DNA of 64,000 nucleotides, from assembly GCF_025857195.1 (NCBI RefSeq), contig NZ_CP109787.1, positions 1,615,501 to 1,679,500 on the forward strand, given 5' to 3'. Origin of the DNA: Leisingera thetidis (GTDB taxonomy: Bacteria; Pseudomonadota; Alphaproteobacteria; Rhodobacterales; Rhodobacteraceae). Position numbers and translations under genes: made by a program. The first letter of the stretch is position 1. The number at the start of each line of letters is the position of its first letter. The notes beneath the pieces are model-generated. The model had not been told where the DNA came from. It ran no database searches and saw nothing but the letters and a program-made list of their open reading frames with translations. Shown here piece by piece: positions 55,677-64,000 of this stretch.

Positions 55677-56728
55677 GGCTTTGTTGCCAAAAAGACGGCT
55701 GGGAATTCACTACGTGAATACAGTATGATAGCTGAAACAGCATAAGAAGTTGGGTCCCTAGGTAGTACAAAACTAGGAACTGGCCTTCGTACAACACAGC
55801 ACTAAGGCAGCGCGGATCACTTTCGGTTTGAATTGATCCTGAGATGGTCTGGGTGCCACCGCAGAGCGACAAGCGGCGCCGACAACAGTAATTCAGCGAC
55901 GCTGCGATTCAGACCTGCCTGACCTTGTAGGTGTTGTTCGGCAGGCCGCTGCGACAGGCGACCGGGTTTGTCGAAAGTCTGCTGCGGCTCGTTGGACGGG
56001 ATTGGGTCGTGCCCGATTTCAGCACAGTTTGCCGCCGTCAGAAGACACTGAACGTGAGCCTGCCGTATCGCGGTGGAACCGGCCCGCTGAATCTTCTTAT
56101 CGATAACACCGGCATCAAGGCCGAGGGTGAAGGGGAGTGGAACGCCCGCAAGCATGGTGGCCCCAAACGCCGGATTTGGCGAGAAATTCATATGCGGATC
56201 GACGAAGTAACGCTAGAAGTTCGGGCGGTCGAGATCACCACCAGCAATGTTGGTGATGCGCCGATGCTGCCGGAACTGCTCGCCTAAATCCCGTCTGATC
56301 AGGACATCGGATCAGTGACCGCCAACGGAGCTTATGGCACGCGCAAATGTCACGACGCGATTGCTGCCCGTGGTGCCGACGCCGTCATTCCGCCTCGCAA
56401 GAACGCAAAACCCTGGAAGCCCACAAGCGCCGGGGCCACCGCCCGAAAATAAGCGGTCAACGCGTCGCGATACCTGGGCCGTGCCCTGTGGCGGCGATGG
56501 AGCGGATACCACCGCAGAAGCCGTGTTGAGAGCAAGGTGAACTGTGTGACACTTCTTGGGCAGTTACTCACGGCACGCGACTTCGACAGACAAGTTGCGG
56601 AAATCCAAATCCGCGTCGCCGCGCAAAATCGCTACACCGCTCTGGGCACACCAGTCACAGAGCCCGTAGGATAAGTCCGCCCGGGGAAGGCGGAAGCCTG
56701 CCTATCAACAGATTTGCGCAACAAAGGC
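55677..56728 (+). mobile_element. Decayed IS5-family insertion sequence (about 1.05 kb)
   Basis: The left end reads GGCTTTGTTGCCAAA (55677-55691). The right end, ATTTGCGCAACAAAGGC (56712-56728), is its inexact reverse complement, as expected for IS5-family terminal repeats. The length of 1052 bases and the single transposase match this group. The element follows the LysR gene and abuts a truncated gene on its right. No target duplication was verified. Confidence 0.82.
55844..56674 (+). pseudogene. IS5-family transposase with four in-frame stops
   Basis: One continuous frame of 276 codons reads as an IS5-type DDE transposase: FSDAAIQTCLTL, then VLFGRPLRQATGFVESLLRLVGRDWVVPDFSTVCRRQKTL, LLIDNTGIKAEGEGEWNARKHGGPKRR, IGSVTANGAYGTRKCHDAIAARGADAVIPPRKNAKPWK, and LWRRWSGYHRRSRVESKVNCVTLLGQLLTARDFDRQVAEIQIRVAVQNRYTALGTPVTEPVG-like end. 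Stops interrupt it at 55889, 55928, 56285 and 56450 with the frame otherwise intact. That indicates slow decay by point mutation rather than deletion. Confidence 0.85.
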
Positions 56729-56904
56729 GCTTTGAATGCGATCCAAAGGAAAATGAAACGCGCATCATCGTCCTCGCCGCAAGCTTCTGCACGGCCGATC
56801 CAACTGATGGCGCGATGGGCGCGCAGTCCCATGGTTTCGGGGAAGCCTTCGCGAATAGCGCGTTGTTTTGCTTTCAAGGCTGCATGCTCAAGACCGTTGT
56901 TCAT
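56729..56904 (-). pseudogene. N-terminal fragment of a conserved gene cut by the IS
   Basis: Starts MNNGLEHAALKAKQRAIREGFPETMGLRAHRAISWIGRAEACGEDDDARFIFLWIAFKA at 56904, behind AGGAATGAGTT. After this the frame enters the right end of the IS. From memory, full-length relatives are a few hundred residues long and may be HEPN/Apea-like. The fragment lies 22 bases after the WYL regulator stop on the same strand, so the intact gene may once have followed it. Family assignment is tentative. Confidence 0.55.
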
Positions 56905-56926: not shown

Positions 56927-57910
56927 TCATGGCAGAGCGTCGAAATCCGACCTCTGGTGGCCCGCAATCAATTCGCGCAAGCCCGCAGGCGCCAACACGT
57001 CCACCTTGTCGCCCCATTGATAAAGGTGCCATGCCATTTCCAGCCAGCCCGCCGCCTTGAACCTGACGATCAGGCTGCCATCGTCCTGAGGCTCGACAAC
57101 TTGGGTCGGGTGAAAACGGAATTCGGCGGCACGCTCAGCGGCTTCCGTCGAGAAGCGCCACACGACTTCGCTATATTGTTCAGGGTCTTGATAGACACCA
57201 AACGCCTGAGCGGCATAGGTCTCTAGGGAGAAACCCGAGGCCAGCTGAAAGCTCTCGTTCAGAACCTCCGCCTCATAAATCCGATCCATGCGGAAGTTCA
57301 GGATGTCTTCTCCACGCGCGGGTTGGCGTGCGACGAGATAACTGCGGTGCCCCAGCAGCATGCCATGCGGTTCGATCACGCGCGGCGCAGCACCCTGAGC
57401 GCCATAGCAGACGCGCAGCCGGAACGGACCGCGCAGCGCTTCGATGACAGCATCTGTCACTGCAGGCTTAAGTGTGACGGTAGGGCCTGGGCGCGTGACC
57501 TGGCCTAATCCAGCCAGCACCGCTTCTGCATCGGCTTCCGACCGAAGCGCATCCCTTGGATTCAAACGCGCCAGCAGCCCGTCGCGGAGATCCTCCAGAG
57601 CGCGTGAGTGCCTTATTCGCCCTTCGTCGCGCGCGGTACGTGCCGCAATTTCCAGCGCCTCGATCGCCGTTTCCTGCCGGGGCTGCAGTCGGTCTGGCAA
57701 GGGTGCGTCCATCCGCCAGTAACGCCGCCTTTCGGCATCGTCTGTGGTCGAAACATTCACGAAAGTTGCTTCGAGAGCCTCGGTCATCCGTTGAGCGGTG
57801 CGATGCGACACATCGAACTCGGCGCAGATGTCCTCAAGGCTGACACCTCCCCGGCGGGACGCCGCCATCTGGGCAAGCCGAAGCAAATCCTGCGCTTTTG
57901 CAAAAGACAT
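56927..57910 (-). CDS. WYL-domain transcriptional regulator
   Basis: 327 residues. The N-terminal winged helix (MSFAKAQDLLRLAQMAASRRGGVSLEDICAEFDVSHRTAQRMTEAL) is followed by the WYL domain near 150-230 (RVCYGAQGAAPRVIEPHGMLLGHRSYLVARQPARGEDILNFRMDRI) and a WCX C-terminal region (EVVWRFSTEAAERAAEFRFHPTQ, GWLEMAWHLYQWGDKVDVLAP). The start at 57910 has GGAG 5 bases before it. It diverges from the nuclease-helicase gene across 105 bases. WYL proteins of this layout (BrxR, CapW) repress phage-defence operons until DNA damage or infection, and the same job is inferred here. Confidence 0.9.
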   Translation of the reverse strand: MSFAKAQDLLRLAQMAASRRGGVSLEDICAEFDVSHRTAQRMTEALEATFVNVSTTDDAERRRYWRMDAPLPDRLQPRQETAIEALEIAARTARDEGRIRHSRALEDLRDGLLARLNPRDALRSEADAEAVLAGLGQVTRPGPTVTLKPAVTDAVIEALRGPFRLRVCYGAQGAAPRVIEPHGMLLGHRSYLVARQPARGEDILNFRMDRIYEAEVLNESFQLASGFSLETYAAQAFGVYQDPEQYSEVVWRFSTEAAERAAEFRFHPTQVVEPQDDGSLIVRFKAAGWLEMAWHLYQWGDKVDVLAPAGLRELIAGHQRSDFDALP

Positions 57911-58015
57911 TTGATCTCCATGCCAGAAATTGACACCCTCAAACGGTATTGATGACCTTGCGGTCTGTCGAGGTGATTCCCTTGGAGATTGATTTGCAAA
58001 GGTAATGGAGTAGCC

Positions 58016-61000
58016 ATGAGGGATCTCGACGGTCGCATCTTTCTGTCCGCAACGGATCTCATGCGCTTCACAGGCTGCGCACATGCGACCACCCTTGATC
58101 TGGCACATATGCGGGGAACGGGCCCGGAGCCGGGCGACGACACCGAAGACGCAGCACTGTTGCAAAAGCAGGGCGATGCCCACGAGGCCGCGCATTTGGC
58201 TCGCCTCAAAAAGGGCGGGCGCACGGTCATGGAAATCGCGCGCGGCAAACTTGGCGAAAACGCTGAAACCACGCGCGCGGCGCTCACTACTGGTCCGGAC
58301 GTCGTGTTTCAGGGCGCGTTTCTGTCGGGGAACTGGGGCGGCTGGTCCGACTTCCTGGAGCGTGTTGAGACACCCTCAGCGCTCGGACCGTTCAGCTACG
58401 AGGTGGCCGACACCAAGCTGAAACGTCGGGCCGATCCCAAACATGTGCTTCAGCTGGTTCTGTATTCCGATCTGTTGGCGGAAATTCAGGGGGTGGTGCC
58501 CGAGTTCGCGCATGTCGAATTGGGAGACGGCACCCGCGCTACGCTGCGCCTGGCAGACTACTCTTCCTATGCTCGGATGGCGCGACAACGGTTGGAAGCC
58601 TTCGTCGCCGATCCGCAGCCAACACGCCCGGTGCCATGTGCGGATTGCGGTCTGTGCCGCTGGGTCGAACATTGCAACAGCGTCTGGCACGCCGAAGACA
58701 GCTTGTTCAATGTCGCCAACATCAGTCGTGGTCAGGTGAAAAAGCTAGAAGCAGCGGGTGTTAACACATTGGAGGCTCTCTCGACGCTGGATCACCCGGT
58801 GCGCGGAATGGCCGAAAACACCCAGGCCCGATTGGTCACTCAGGCCCGCCTGCAACAGGCCCGCAAAACCGGGGAGCCAGATTTTGAACTGCGGGCACTG
58901 GAGCCTGGCAAAGGTTTCGACCTCCTGCCGGAACCCCAGACGGGCGACCTGTTCTACGACATCGAAGGCGATCCTCACTATGAAGGCGGCCTCGAATATC
59001 TGCACGGCATCTGGTTCGACGGGCAGTTCCAGGCGTTCTGGGCCCATGACCACGACACAGAAGCGCGGGCATTGTCGGACTTGCTGGCGTTCTTTCGCGC
59101 GCGGATTTCGCAATACCCCACTGCGCGCATTTATCACTACGCGCCATACGAGATCACCGCGCTGAAACGCCTGACCGCGAAATATGGTATCGGTGAAGCT
59201 TTCCTCGACCGGCTGCTCCGGGAACGACGCTTCGTCGACTTGTTCGCCGTGGTCCGCGGCGGGCTGATCGGGTCGGAACCAAACTATTCCATCAAATCGA
59301 TGGAAGCATTTTACGACCGCAAGCGGGACGGTGAGGTCAAGACAGCGGGTGGCTCGGTCGTGGCCTATGAGCGTTGGCGTAAAACGCAAGACCAGCAGAT
59401 TCTGGACGAGATCGAGGATTACAACCGCGTCGATTGCATCTCGACCGAGGAATTGCGCGACTGGCTGGTAGGCATCCGACCTGTCGGCCCTTGGCCAAAA
59501 CTTGCCCCGGATGCAGGCGATAAAGAAGTCGAAGAGGACGCCGACACGCAAGCTCTGCGCAACCTGCTAGCAACATCAGGCTTGCCCGAGGCGCGGCAGG
59601 ATATGCTGTTCAACCTCGGCGTCTTTCACAACCGCGAGTTAAAGCCCGCGCAATGGGCCGTATTCGATAGCACCGCAAAGGACGAGGATGATCTGCTCGA
59701 CGATCTCGATGCACTTGGCGGGCTTGAGGCAGCGGGTCCTGTCGAACCCGTCAAGCGATCCTTCGCGCGCCGATACACCTATCCCGAACAGGAGACGAAA
59801 CTGCGGAGCGGCAAGAAGGCGACGGTTCCCGTATTCGATAGCCCACCTACAACGGTTGGGATCGAGTCTATGGATCGCCGCGCTCGTCAGATCACCGTCA
59901 AAGCAGGCCCGGGCAAGGCCGACCTACTGACGGAACAGCTGACGCTGCATCCGGACTGGCCGATCCAGACAGGCGTCATTGCCAGTGCTTTGCGTGATGT
60001 GATCGATGATCAATGCGGCGCGGGCCAATATACGGCCGTGGATGACCTGCTCTCGCGCGCTGCACCGCGTCTGCGCTCTGGCCCGCGGGGCGATCTTTTG
60101 GGCGGGGCAGACCCTGTAGCGGGCACTATTGCCGTGGTGAATGACATGGATGGAACGGTCCTGCCGATCCAGGGGCCACCTGGTACCGGCAAGACCTATG
60201 TGAGCGCGCGCGCGATCCTGTCTTTGGTGCGCAAGGGCCATCGCGTCGGCGTCGCATCCAACAGCCACGAGGCTATCAGGAATGTGCTGATGGGCTGTCT
60301 TTCAGCTTTGGAAGACGAAGACCTGCCGATCAATCTTGATCTCGTCCACAAGGTTTCCAGCATCGAGGATGGTTATCCCGAAGGCTGCCCTGTACATCGT
60401 ACGACTGACAACGCAGAAGCCGCGAAAACCGGGCATGTCGTGGGCGGCACCGCGTGGTTCTTTTCGCGCGACGAAAATGTTCAGGCCTTTGATTGGCTGT
60501 TCGTGGACGAGGCAGGTCAGGTCGGACTTGCCAACATGGCTGCCATGGGGCGTGCCGCGCGAAACATCGTCCTTGTGGGCGACCCACGCCAGTTGCCGCA
60601 AGTCATTCAGGGAGCGCATCCCGAGCCTGCGAACCTGTCGTGCCTGGATTGGATGCTCGGTGAGCATGCGACGGTTCCAGCCGACCGGGGCATTTTCCTT
60701 CCCACTTCACGGCGCATGCACCCTGACGTCTGTCGGTTTGTCTCAGAACAGGTGTATGAAGGCCGACTGACCAGCCATCCTGATACGGCTAACCAGTGCG
60801 TGACAGGCACGGCGCTCCCCGAAGCCGGAGCTTTCTGGGTGCCGGTCCCGCATGAGGGTAATGCCCAGATCGCACAGGAAGAAGTCGACGCTATTGGCAA
60901 AACCGTCACTGACCTCCTTGACGGCAGCTGGACGGAGAAGGACGGCAGCACGCGGCCGATGCGCGATACGGACATCATCGTCGTCGCCCCATACAACGCA

Positions 61001-61291
61001 CAGGTAAACGCTTTGCGGGATGCCCTTCCGTTGGGCGTTCGCGTCGGAACCGTGGACAAGTTTCAGGGGCAAGAGGCGCCGGTCTGCCTGGTTTCCATGA
61101 CCGCATCTTCCGCCGAAGAAACCTCGCGCGGGATGGAGTTTCTGTTTTCTCTGAACCGCATCAATGTAGCGGTCTCCCGCGCCAAGGGACTCGCATTGGT
61201 ATTTGGAGCCCCGCGATTGCGTGAGGCGAAGTGCAATACTGTTGAGCAAATGCAGCTGGTGAATACGCTCTGCGCATTGTCGGCATTTTGA
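58016..61291 (+). CDS. TM0106-family RecB-like nuclease fused to SF1 helicase
   Basis: 1091 residues with three enzymatic parts. (1) A Cas4/RecB-like nuclease at 1-225 with Fe-S cysteines C21 and C208/C211/C214/C220 and a conserved YEVADTKLKRRADPKHVLQLVLY core. (2) A DEDDh-type exonuclease-like region at 310-490: DLFYDIEGDPHYEGGLEYLHG, HYAPYEITALKRL, YNRVDCISTEELRDWL. (3) A superfamily 1 helicase: Walker A GPPGTGKT (from 720), WLFVDEAGQV, LVGDPRQLPQV, VGTVDKFQGQEAPVCLVSM, NRINVAVSRAKGLALVFG. The start at 58016 has GGAG before it. The McrB-like gene begins 18 bases later on the same strand. It resembles Dna2-like DNA-processing enzymes and likely degrades or unwinds invading DNA; the defence role is inferred. 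Confidence 0.9.
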   Translation: MRDLDGRIFLSATDLMRFTGCAHATTLDLAHMRGTGPEPGDDTEDAALLQKQGDAHEAAHLARLKKGGRTVMEIARGKLGENAETTRAALTTGPDVVFQGAFLSGNWGGWSDFLERVETPSALGPFSYEVADTKLKRRADPKHVLQLVLYSDLLAEIQGVVPEFAHVELGDGTRATLRLADYSSYARMARQRLEAFVADPQPTRPVPCADCGLCRWVEHCNSVWHAEDSLFNVANISRGQVKKLEAAGVNTLEALSTLDHPVRGMAENTQARLVTQARLQQARKTGEPDFELRALEPGKGFDLLPEPQTGDLFYDIEGDPHYEGGLEYLHGIWFDGQFQAFWAHDHDTEARALSDLLAFFRARISQYPTARIYHYAPYEITALKRLTAKYGIGEAFLDRLLRERRFVDLFAVVRGGLIGSEPNYSIKSMEAFYDRKRDGEVKTAGGSVVAYERWRKTQDQQILDEIEDYNRVDCISTEELRDWLVGIRPVGPWPKLAPDAGDKEVEEDADTQALRNLLATSGLPEARQDMLFNLGVFHNRELKPAQWAVFDSTAKDEDDLLDDLDALGGLEAAGPVEPVKRSFARRYTYPEQETKLRSGKKATVPVFDSPPTTVGIESMDRRARQITVKAGPGKADLLTEQLTLHPDWPIQTGVIASALRDVIDDQCGAGQYTAVDDLLSRAAPRLRSGPRGDLLGGADPVAGTIAVVNDMDGTVLPIQGPPGTGKTYVSARAILSLVRKGHRVGVASNSHEAIRNVLMGCLSALEDEDLPINLDLVHKVSSIEDGYPEGCPVHRTTDNAEAAKTGHVVGGTAWFFSRDENVQAFDWLFVDEAGQVGLANMAAMGRAARNIVLVGDPRQLPQVIQGAHPEPANLSCLDWMLGEHATVPADRGIFLPTSRRMHPDVCRFVSEQVYEGRLTSHPDTANQCVTGTALPEAGAFWVPVPHEGNAQIAQEEVDAIGKTVTDLLDGSWTEKDGSTRPMRDTDIIVVAPYNAQVNALRDALPLGVRVGTVDKFQGQEAPVCLVSMTASSAEETSRGMEFLFSLNRINVAVSRAKGLALVFGAPRLREAKCNTVEQMQLVNTLCALSAF

Positions 61292-61309
61292 TATAAGGAA
61301 CTAGAAGGT

Positions 61310-64000
61310 ATGGATAATATGGCAAGCGAAAGCGGCTGGCTTGTCATCCGCAAAGAGCAGGCGGAAGCCTACGGAAAGAAATTGTCCGAGGCGGAATTCT
61401 TGGTCAGGGCTGGCTCAACCGCCATGCGCGAAGGCACCCCAAAGGTGAAACGCAATCGTCCAGAGCGTGATCGTTTGGTTCAGCAAGGGATTTTGGTTCC
61501 AGATGCCAATGTCGCGCTGTTCCGCTTTTCTCAGGACCATGTTTTTTCAAGCAAGAGTACAGCAGCGGGCGTTGTCATTGACGGAAACAGCAATGGCGAC
61601 CATTGGAAGGAAGCTGGGGGCTCGCCGTCGCTGGTTGCTTTGGTCGCGCAGGTAACGAGGCGCCATATCGAACTGGCGATGGATGAGTGCGATAGGAAGG
61701 GCTTGAGTGCCTTTCTTGCCGAACATGAATTCGGTAAACCTCGTGTATGGGCATTGCGCAACAATCACCGCTATCCTGCAAAGGCGACTGTTGCTGTTGC
61801 AATTCAGTATTTGCCTGCCGGTCCTAGGTTCTCCGCCAAGACATTTTTCAACGGGTTCGGCGAAAAGAAGGCCTTCGCGCGTCTCGAAGAACTTGGGTAT
61901 GAGTTGGACCGCGATGACGAAACGCTGAGCCGCACAAGCGTCGAAGCCGCGATGGACGCACTCGACAGCTACCGTACGACAGGGGCGCATGGCGAAATCT
62001 TTGGTGCCTTCGGAGAACCACGCGATTATTGGGTCCGGTCATCGCGTGAGCGCGAAAATCGCGTCTATCCCACCAAACCGGTGATTGGCTTCATTCTGGG
62101 CAAGACAGAACTAAACGGTGGTTGGGGACAGAAGGCAGATGCTGCTGCGCGTCTTCACAACGCCGGATTTATCATTGTCGACCAAAACGATCAGCCCATC
62201 GAGCCCCCAAAACGCTACGAACACCTGATTGAAGGTGCCGACCGGACCAGGCTTTGCGCCCTGAATTATTACATAGAACCTGCCCGGGAAAAGGCGGCCA
62301 GCGAGGTCTCCATCCGCGCAGGAGACTTGGCTACGGCGATCGGGCTGAAAGACGCATTCCCGAACATCTGCCAGGCCCTTGGCGGTGAGAAGTTCCAGAA
62401 TCTTGCGCAAGTACCGCCGCCCACGAGCACCGAACCGAATCCAAGCAGCTCGACCGTTTTCACATATACGCTCAATTCCCAACCGGAGGCGGACACCGTG
62501 ACCGACACAAGAAAAGCGCCCTCGCCATCCGCCGTAAACTTGATCCTCTATGGCCCGCCTGGCACGGGCAAGACGTATCAGACGGCATGGGAAGCAGTAC
62601 GGCTGTGCTTGGGAGACGAGGCTGCCGCTTTCTTAAATGGACAGGATAGCCGAGCAGAGCTCATGAGCACGTACCGCAGCCTCGTGAGCGAGGGGCGCAT
62701 CGAATTCGTGACCTTCCACCAGTCGATGTCCTACGAGGAGTTCATCGAGGGGCTGCGACCGACCACGGATCAGTCCGAAGACAGCTCGGCGGGCACCGGG
62801 TTCCGGCTGGAGCCGGCACCCGGGATATTCAGGCGCATCTCGGAGCGTGCGGAGAAGGGCGTGGCAACTGTACCGCGAGAGAACGTCGTTTCCCTCGAAG
62901 GGCGGCAGGTCTTCAAGATGTCGATCCCGCGCGCCAACGTGGCCGCGGAGGACTACCTGTTCGAGGAGGCCATCTCCGAGGGGCACACGCTCCTCGGCTG
63001 GGAGGACATCGACTTCTCCGACGACAGGTTTTCCGATGTCGAGGAAATACTGGAGACTTGTCGTACCCAGGGCGAGCGCGAAGGCGAGGTCACTCTCCAG
63101 TCGGGCCAAGTGAGCCAAGTGGACGTTTTCCGCAACCAGTTGGACGTCGGAGACATCATCGTCGTCACCAAGGGCAACCGACTATTCCGGGCCATCGGCG
63201 AGGTCACGGGCGAGTACGAATACCGGCAGCGGGACAACCGGAAGTACTGCCACCGGCGGTCCGTGCGGTGGCTCTGGGTCGACAGAGATGGGGTTTCTGC
63301 CTCCGAGATCTACGATGGCAACTTCACCATGAGGTCGATCTATGCTCTCGATCGGGCCCGCCTCGATACCGTTGCCCTCGAAAGCTACATGAATAGCGGC
63401 GGCGATCCGGTGCATCGCGAGGCAAGACCGCATGTCCTTATCATCGACGAGATCAACCGGGCGAATATCTCCAAGGTCTTCGGCGAATTGATCACGCTTC
63501 TCGAGCCCGATAAGCGGCTCGGGATGGCCAACGAAATCCGCCTCACGCTTCCCTATTCCAAGAAGTCTTTTGGGGTACCTCAAAACCTCCATGTCATCGG
63601 TACGATGAACACAGCCGATCGCTCCATCGCGCTCTTGGATACAGCACTACGCCGCCGGTTCTCTTTCAAGGAACTGATGCCCGACCCTTCAGTTCTGTCG
63701 GACAACGTTGAGGGGGTCGATCTGCAAAAGCTGCTGTCTACGATCAACGAGCGGATCGAGTATCTGTTCGACCGGGAGCATCAAGTCGGGCACGCCTACT
63801 TCACAGGCTGCCAGACGCGGTCGGATATCGAGAGCGTCATGCGAGACAAGGTGATCCCTCTTCTGGCTGAGTATTTCTATGAGGATTGGTCCAAGGTCGC
63901 AGCTGTTCTTGGCGACTCTGCTCACGGTCCCGCCCGTTTCCTCGATGCCAATCGAATTGCTGTACCCGGAGGCATGACTGAAGACGACTTTTCTAGCGAA
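61310..64000 (+). CDS. McrB-type GTPase with DUF4357-like and EVE/PUA-like domains (partial, runs off right edge)
   Basis: The frame is open from the ATG at 61310 (AGAAGG upstream) to base 64000, 897 codons with no stop. Residues 25-105 resemble DUF4357 (FLVRAGSTAMREG, RDRLVQQGILV, FRFSQDHVFSSKSTAAGVVI), usually attached to GIY-YIG proteins. After a linker, the AAA+ McrB core begins with ILYGPPGTGKT (415-422). An insert at about 525-690 looks like an EVE/PUA reader (VDVFRNQLDVGDIIVVTKGNRLFRAIGEVTGEYEY, CHRRSVRWLW). The core resumes with Walker B LIIDEINRANISKVFGELITLLE (D713, E714) and the McrB motif MNTADRS (766-772). A partner McrC nuclease would be expected downstream but is outside the window. 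Probably a modification-dependent restriction factor. Confidence 0.87.
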   Translation, partial: MDNMASESGWLVIRKEQAEAYGKKLSEAEFLVRAGSTAMREGTPKVKRNRPERDRLVQQGILVPDANVALFRFSQDHVFSSKSTAAGVVIDGNSNGDHWKEAGGSPSLVALVAQVTRRHIELAMDECDRKGLSAFLAEHEFGKPRVWALRNNHRYPAKATVAVAIQYLPAGPRFSAKTFFNGFGEKKAFARLEELGYELDRDDETLSRTSVEAAMDALDSYRTTGAHGEIFGAFGEPRDYWVRSSRERENRVYPTKPVIGFILGKTELNGGWGQKADAAARLHNAGFIIVDQNDQPIEPPKRYEHLIEGADRTRLCALNYYIEPAREKAASEVSIRAGDLATAIGLKDAFPNICQALGGEKFQNLAQVPPPTSTEPNPSSSTVFTYTLNSQPEADTVTDTRKAPSPSAVNLILYGPPGTGKTYQTAWEAVRLCLGDEAAAFLNGQDSRAELMSTYRSLVSEGRIEFVTFHQSMSYEEFIEGLRPTTDQSEDSSAGTGFRLEPAPGIFRRISERAEKGVATVPRENVVSLEGRQVFKMSIPRANVAAEDYLFEEAISEGHTLLGWEDIDFSDDRFSDVEEILETCRTQGEREGEVTLQSGQVSQVDVFRNQLDVGDIIVVTKGNRLFRAIGEVTGEYEYRQRDNRKYCHRRSVRWLWVDRDGVSASEIYDGNFTMRSIYALDRARLDTVALESYMNSGGDPVHREARPHVLIIDEINRANISKVFGELITLLEPDKRLGMANEIRLTLPYSKKSFGVPQNLHVIGTMNTADRSIALLDTALRRRFSFKELMPDPSVLSDNVEGVDLQKLLSTINERIEYLFDREHQVGHAYFTGCQTRSDIESVMRDKVIPLLAEYFYEDWSKVAAVLGDSAHGPARFLDANRIAVPGGMTEDDFSSE

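Follow-up and report, generated by a model that had tools for sequence, protein, structure and literature searches.

At the right end of a 64,000-nucleotide stretch of the Leisingera thetidis genome (5.47 Mb, 8 contigs; the stretch, G000:C1:1615501-1679500, is called the window here) lies a group of genes in which a HEPN-like gene stump and a WYL-domain regulator on the reverse strand precede a TM0106 family enzyme and a McrB-type motor on the forward strand, with McrC past the edge. Comparison with related loci leads us to favour, with moderate confidence, the reading that this locus is a version of a mobile, modular anti-phage operon with a constant WYL(-HEPN)-TM0106 front and an exchangeable rear module. 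The gene coordinates, the 18-base gap between TM0106 and McrB and the Walker positions given in a preliminary description of the window were right. The features are listed in window coordinates; the second copy and locus L007 are described below.

55931..56287, forward strand: fragment of an insertion-sequence DDE transposase (PF13737 3.9e-23, PF01609 3.1e-8), adjoining the HEPN-like stump
56632..56904, reverse strand: HEPN-like gene stump of 90 codons, about the first 59 residues of which match the intact 221-residue gene of the second copy
56927..57910, reverse strand: WYL-domain regulator with WYL and WCX domains, 327 residues if it starts at the methionine at residue 96 of the open reading frame (ORF)
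57930..57971, no strand: candidate operator TTGACA-N30-TGTCGA, 42 bp, between the divergent WYL and TM0106 genes
58016..61291, forward strand: TM0106 family (TIGR03491) enzyme with a RecB/Cas4-like nuclease carrying a cysteine cluster, a DEDD-type exonuclease-like domain and a superfamily 1 (SF1; DNA2/UPF1-like) helicase
59228..61269, forward strand: putative module-exchange stretch relative to L007, from the distribution of mismatches between the window and L007
61310..64000 (continuing to 64054), forward strand: McrB-type AAA+ motor of 914 residues, with McrC next, outside the window

A second complete WYL-HEPN-TM0106-McrBC locus was found on contig C6 (102.9 kb; L004:12206-19979 and L005:837-2768). 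It holds McrC, a McrB in a 1,150-residue ORF with a different N-terminus, and TM0106, together with a divergent WYL gene and an intact HEPN-like gene of 221 residues (L005:2103-2768). The TM0106 proteins of the two copies are about 77% identical. From a reading of the translations, the C6 copy adjoins what we take to be virB-type conjugation genes.

The window TM0106 scored 259.4 bits against TIGR03491 (curated cut-off 97.45), and AAA_11, AAA_12 and AAA_30 were over their cut-offs in its helicase part. Its key residues were invariant in all 71 sequences, except for one residue conserved in 70 of them and a cysteine conserved in about 65. Solved structures nearest to it by sequence include SMUBP-2, UPF1, SEN1 and DNA2. 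The build of a RecB/Cas4-like nuclease, an RNase H-like exonuclease and AAA helicase domains, which is noted for COG2251 (PMC3985635), is shared by the window enzyme, the TM0106/COG2251 family and DNA2. No model in PADLOC-DB matched TM0106 end to end; partial matches fell mainly in the helicase (MkoA, MkoC, DpdJ and PDC-S37), and DruK matched weakly in the nuclease part. Within the collection and terms searched, no defence role was found in the literature for the TM0106/COG2251 family.

It had been predicted in the preliminary description that McrC would follow McrB. This proved to be so: McrC (L003:9510-10868, PF10117 E 4e-72) lies just past the window edge, and its ORF overlaps the end of McrB (L003:6811-9555). 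McrB matched AAA_5 at 8.7e-16 and its best PDB matches were McrB, while Walker A (G415-T422), Walker B (D713/E714) and N767-D770 (NTAD, of the NxxD type) were invariant in 42 sequences. The protein consists of a DUF4357-like N-terminus, a ScoMcrA-N-like stretch (residues 113-204) and an AAA+ core with an insert. By eye, the ScoMcrA-N-like stretch seems to be repeated at about residues 208-300. The insert, a YTH/EVE-like region at residues ~520-702, has a fold like that of the EVE/YTH readers of modified bases (PUA superfamily), which bears out the earlier suggestion of an EVE/PUA-like part between Walker A and Walker B. With the type IV McrBC systems of E. coli K-12 and Thermococcus gammatolerans the window system shares an AAA+ McrB with NxxD (NTAD), an adjacent PF10117 McrC and a reader of the PUA superfamily. 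It differs from them in the placing of the reader within the AAA+ domain, flanked by Walker A and Walker B, in the extra DUF4357-like and ScoMcrA-N-like N-terminal parts, and in the position of the gene behind TM0106. The T. gammatolerans McrB has a reader of the YTH type for N6-methyladenine (m6A) (PMC7641849), and insertions in McrB GTPase domains have already been reported as frequent (PMC11090510), so that the insert as such is not new. In the window copy McrB, through its YTH/EVE-type reader, would probably be the sensor, and McrC would do the cutting; judged by likeness to known EVE/YTH readers, modified phage DNA would be the likeliest target.

The rear of the locus was then compared across relatives. 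One genome per species was scanned with the TM0106 protein, which yielded 140, and the best 80 of the 140 were kept as loci; they are thus a similarity-ranked subset chosen by TM0106 likeness, with titles mostly from Alphaproteobacteria, and locus counts are not counts of independent events. Modules were called with PADLOC on 27 proteins of these loci (5 without a match), and the remaining loci were assigned by BLAST to those. McrB and McrC were both present at the TM0106 3′ end in 36 of the 80 loci (tblastn; the McrB core match of L065 covers only 288 residues, while McrC of L046 and McrB of L072 escaped the ORF caller), a linkage of helicase-nuclease and McrB in other genomes that the preliminary description had named as a check. 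Another module took the place of McrBC in 34 loci. A Tiamat-like module was found in 20 (three of them fragments or cut by a contig end: L054, L056 and L063), a big ATPase of up to 2,485 residues with DrmD in five (in L019 it is split, and in L032 the contig end truncates it), and a Mza module in two. Modules seen in one locus each were a SNF2 pair (L009), Druantia DruE (L068), PbeA with a MzaA-like protein (L043) and PDC-M26A (L069); further single labels were a DRT-associated SbcB-like protein (third gene in L084), a LmuB-like protein (L073, weak) and a GajB-like protein (fourth gene in L042).

Coupling to TM0106 was tight for some of these modules. Gene calls in the fetched loci were simple longest-ORF choices, and intergenic gaps are therefore lower bounds; on this count McrB either overlapped the TM0106 stop or started no more than 18 nt after it in 33 of the 34 loci listed, and the same was true of the big ATPase in 5 of 5. 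A stand-alone DUF4357-like protein (mostly 109 residues, cluster c6) followed TM0106 in ten loci, with a Tiamat-like or Mza module behind it in nine and nothing known in L079. This protein is related to the N-terminus of the window McrB, and PF14267 was over cut-off in L018.

The front was more constant. A WYL gene was present in 70 of the 80 loci, divergent in 68, and divergent at less than 1 kb from TM0106 in 64, with spacers mostly of ~105 or ~550 bp. Both the WYL and the WCX domain of the window regulator, whose ORF itself extends to 58195, were over cut-off; at its N-terminus no helix-turn-helix (HTH) match was obtained at E≤0.001, and HTH_23 in the C6 copy stayed under cut-off (E 0.0011). 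The element TTGACA-N30-TGTCRA occurred in 48 of 65 usable WYL/TM0106 spacers, 42 bp long every time, and in none of 50 shuffled sets; the loci are related, so these are not 48 independent cases and part of the conservation reflects common descent.

The HEPN-like gene was found in 49 of the 80 loci, and six loci without it start less than 2.6 kb from TM0106 and are hence uninformative on this gene. Its R-x4-H motif reads RNQLVH or RNQLIH, and all 26 aligned proteins have R167 and H172; the window stump has lost the half that carries RNQLVH. The intact protein of the second copy matched no Pfam family at E≤1, and fold searches gave no clear HEPN match. We use the name 'HEPN-like' since no family profile matched, although source annotations call some matches HEPN or Apea-like HEPN. 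The same 90-residue stump ORF, with 59 matching residues, is also present in L007, so the break in the gene probably predates the McrBC/Tiamat exchange described below.

To what extent front and module travel together was examined on a TM0106 tree of 82 proteins, 72 of them labelled by module, made with a quick method. Module type required 31 changes on this tree, compared with a shuffled mean of 30.7, and 137 of 200 shuffles gave a count as low; for McrBC, at least 15 changes are required by the starred branches taken by themselves. Within the front, distances were correlated for TM0106-HEPN (rho 0.735, 45 loci), WYL-HEPN (0.554, 40 loci) and TM0106-WYL (0.438, 67 loci), and within the module for McrB-McrC (0.662, 35 loci). 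Between front and module the values were 0.183 for TM0106-McrB (35 loci; 21 of 500 permutations as high) and 0.185 for TM0106-McrC (36 loci; 14 of 500). Covariation inside each part and its weakness between them indicate that front and module move largely independently of each other and are at most weakly linked.

To locate the place at which modules change, we took the 64 locus pairs that differ in module, share ≥85% DNA identity and match as far as the final 900 nt of TM0106; the pairs are not independent. Relative to the final sense codon of TM0106, homology stopped between positions -36 and +13 nt, and in 63 of the 64 between -36 and -1. In 34 close pairs with different modules, identity was mostly even up to codon 1081 and then dropped. 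The residues after VNTLCAL tend to follow the module and not the TM0106 lineage in a list read by eye. In a binned test of the link between module and sequence, which is a weak test, differences did not exceed 0.01 as far as residue 1070; they were 0.04-0.05 for residues 1071-1082 and for 1086-1088, -0.004 for 1083-1085 and 0.02 for the last three. The association of the tail with the module is therefore based mainly on the list read by eye.

A direct case is given by the window and the Leisingera locus L007, which share 99.69% identity over 12,254 bp before diverging into McrBC in the window and a Tiamat protein (PADLOC 1318 bits) in L007. Mismatches numbered 8 in 8,569 bp and then 28 in the final 223 bp compared; in window coordinates there were none from 59228 to 61068 and then 15 up to 61238, and homology was gone by 61269. 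This pattern resembles homologous recombination within the final part of TM0106. An exchange exactly at the gene end was considered and rejected, as identity already falls from codon 1018. The DNA behind the L007 module has its best match in this genome near 1.00 Mb, at a distance of 0.67 Mb and with 84-86% identity, and the exchange would thus have come with or after a larger rearrangement or transfer.

The idea that the TM0106 3′ end is a target of site-specific recombination was also rejected, because codon block 1077-1088 ranked 720 among 1,075 windows and had no extra conservation. Copies of the gene end repeated further downstream were conspicuous in only 3 of 76 loci scanned (L071, L037 and L028), with a mean excess over shuffles of 0.5 matches of 33. 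Given the lack of codon conservation and the scarcity of such repeats, homologous recombination is preferred. Stacked modules were seen in L028 and L071, where McrBC is followed by a module of a 476-residue protein and a SNF2 helicase. Directly before the second module lies a relic of the TM0106 3′ end, which reads EQMRLVNALCAL in L071 and has diverged further in L028; in L037 a relic of this kind precedes McrB. Relics between stacked modules are what would be left by inserting one module between TM0106 and an older module.

We extended the comparison to genomes of the class, to plasmids and to distant relatives. Among 192 class genomes TM0106 was over cut-off eight times in seven genomes and McrC 12 times in ten. 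Three of the eight TM0106 genes adjoin McrBC, two in this genome and one in G133 (L121), again in agreement with the linkage first proposed. The distant class relative L118 has a GajB-like neighbour by BLAST; further neighbours we read as presumed OLD and type I restriction genes. Of the five other strong McrC genes three were examined (L141, L142 and L143); the G054 contig was too short (L144), and G138 and four weak McrC genes stood outside the comparison. An upstream gene in L143 is presumably guaA.

Plasmid records with TM0106 relatives numbered 63, of which 20 were at ≥60% identity, and nine of the 20 were opened. They are independent records in which WYL-TM0106 again has differing genes behind it. 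Behind TM0106, L135 carries an AAA ATPase together with a restriction endonuclease, and L137 carries the ATPase alone; in L134 there is a DUF4357 gene with a 1,776-residue DUF3883 protein (the same size as the Tiamat protein of L012), and in L132 a 1,405-residue hypothetical protein that is Tiamat-like by size alone. In three Sphingobium conjugative plasmids (L138, L139 and L140) the genes after WYL-TM0106 encode a DNA repair exonuclease and an AAA ATPase. In L138 and L140 a methyltransferase and a restriction endonuclease were seen behind this pair, which is perhaps SbcCD-like. Seven distant relatives were opened, at 36-51% identity. TM0106 lies beside multiubiquitin/ThiF/DUF6527 operons in L125 (7899-14148), which also has a divergent WYL gene, and in L126 (5573-12306), where E2 is also present. 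Its neighbour is a DUF2357 protein in L127 and BREX with TrlF in L128, L129 and L131 had no clear partner, and on a cyanobacterial plasmid (L130) McrC, McrB and TM0106 stand together in a different order.

Based on these comparisons a working sequence of events can be proposed for the modular operon. The WYL protein would repress the divergent promoters via the conserved 42-bp element, and a signal of infection would relieve this repression. The module would recognise its target, in the case of McrBC modified DNA, and then cut or stall it, after which TM0106 may load onto the resulting DNA ends or single strands and degrade or unwind them; that TM0106 helps the module is suggested by its place in the operon. 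The HEPN-like protein would be an optional RNase of the front. Recombination within the TM0106 3′ end or close to it would exchange or stack modules, and a new module would therefore come under the same control and beside the same helper enzyme. Gene content and order, their conservation, the near-independence of the two parts and the end points of homology are observed here; repression, induction, the helper action and the role against phages are inferred. A stronger version, in which the WYL-HEPN-TM0106 front is a universal effector chassis whose DNA2-like enzyme, with the HEPN-like RNase, is the common executioner or helper for unrelated plugged-in sensors, all switched by WYL, is put forward only tentatively and we think it rather unlikely. 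In this version the sensors (McrBC, Tiamat, Mza, Druantia-like, DrmD-like and others) would plug in behind the 3′ end in the fashion of integron cassettes.

Several observations weigh against the modular operon. Ten of the 80 loci had no recognised module by PADLOC/BLAST assignment: in L014, L058 and L064 the contig ends within ~0.4 kb, L079 has a DUF4357-like gene only and L086 has Hhe on the other strand, and in L017, L044, L051, L062 and L078 nothing was recognised behind TM0106. Some single labels are weak or distant, the GajB-like gene of L042 being 2.5 kb off and the LmuB-like match of L073 covering the first 100 residues only. Tiamat-like genes start anywhere from -73 to +460 nt from the TM0106 stop. 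Codon conservation at the gene end marks no recombinase site, and in three of the 34 close pairs (L023/L075, L020/L075 and L032/L057) identity drops to 76-77% in codons 601-900, so that crossovers inside the gene also occur. TM0106 genes of ≤55% identity in the class genomes are mostly without such a setting (L116, L117, L119 and L120). McrBC relatives stand without an adjacent TM0106 in L141-L143 and are thus independent of it. Among the plasmids, inositol genes lie behind WYL and TM0106 in L133, and L136 shows no clear module.

Much of this would be expected if TM0106 were an anchor only, that is, if WYL and TM0106 were an independent small defence or repair unit whose TM0106 end is a hot spot at which unrelated defence genes come and go by homologous recombination and borrow the promoter, without any joint mechanism. 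This is the serious rival, and we regard it as a distinct though not a probable possibility. The modules are known stand-alone systems, TM0106 also occurs without a recognised module, and distances of front and module are nearly independent; the window/L007 tract resembles homologous recombination in TM0106, and the few pairs that cross further inside the gene fit as well. It accounts less readily for the near-zero, same-strand spacing of McrBC and of the big ATPase, and for three distant TM0106 genes, from Beta- and Gammaproteobacteria and a cyanobacterium, that also adjoin defence-type genes. The preliminary description had instead seen a dedicated type IV composite of WYL, the RecB/SF1 enzyme and EVE-McrBC, with the helicase-nuclease processing McrBC products. 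Although the linkage recurs in 36 loci and twice in this genome, and all three genes meet on the cyanobacterial plasmid, such a composite is very improbable: other modules occupy the same place in 34 loci, module type does not follow the TM0106 tree, the TM0106-McrB correlation is only 0.18, and McrBC lives without TM0106. Slightly less improbable, yet still doubtful, is an abortive-infection front, in which a HEPN-like RNase silenced by WYL is triggered through sensing of damaged DNA by TM0106 and the modules are cargo. A helicase of this kind of action has been reported in Hachiman, which senses damaged DNA (PMC12278908). The covariation of HEPN-like and TM0106 proteins was the strongest of the pairs tested, R167 and H172 are invariant, and several matches are named HEPN by their sources; against this, the gene occurs in only 49 of 80 loci, is broken in the window copy, and gave no clear HEPN match in fold searches.

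The modular operon shares features with several known systems. WYL regulators of the BrxR family adjoin many different defence systems, as here; members have inverted repeats upstream, and the case studied is a repressor (PMC9122601). The regulator of the present loci differs in being tied to one constant enzyme gene, and the variable systems begin behind that enzyme. CoCoNuT types II and III combine the same ingredients, namely McrBC relatives, a UPF1-like SF1 helicase and, in II and III-A, a HEPN effector (PMC11090510). Their McrB has a NxD motif, whereas that of the window has NTAD (NxxD), and their helicase carries OB-fold, RNase-toxin-like or Vsr-like parts where the window enzyme has the RecB/DEDD arrangement (PMC11090510); on these two grounds the locus is not a CoCoNuT, and McrBC is here only one of many partners. 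Among the matches listed, in the collection and terms searched, the WYL-TM0106-module arrangement was not found described, and a check of PMC12839542 and PMC12458937 by term found no passage on it. The loci show that whole defence systems can be exchanged at one site with control kept intact. At hot spots in P2/P4 phages and satellites and in Pseudomonas islands, different defence systems reportedly replace each other at one site. As we understand these, their cargo lies between core or phage genes, whereas in the present loci it is a mobile, defence-like gene pair that stays constant, with the cargo becoming part of its operon. Natural matched operons with the same front and a different module allow a direct test of a common helper enzyme and a common switch, and the genes directly behind WYL-TM0106 pairs are suggested as good candidates for undescribed defence systems.

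Some further observations were made. The 476-residue protein is paired with a SNF2 helicase of 939-942 residues in three loci (L009:12285-13715, L028:16170-17600 and L071:16157-17587); the L009 protein had no Pfam or PADLOC match, and the pair is a possible undescribed two-gene defence module. In L034, L041 and L042 about 4-6.5 kb separate WYL from TM0106 and hold a common set of uncharacterised genes (clusters c16, c27 and c39). An alternative front lies upstream of TM0106 in L054 and L077, consisting of a 686-690-residue protein (an AAA ATPase in L077), WYL and a third gene, all co-directional with TM0106. The loci on contigs labelled 'Nocardioides marinus' (L008) and 'Oceanobacillus' (L038) are close to alphaproteobacterial ones, and these are probably mislabelled or contaminated assemblies. 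Finally, 3′ of the modules we observed a large serine recombinase (Pfam run on L056 only) with one or two RepB/ParB-like genes on the opposite strand; the recombinase recurs in six loci (L023, L024, L048, L056, L065 and L076) and is possibly a mover of the islands.

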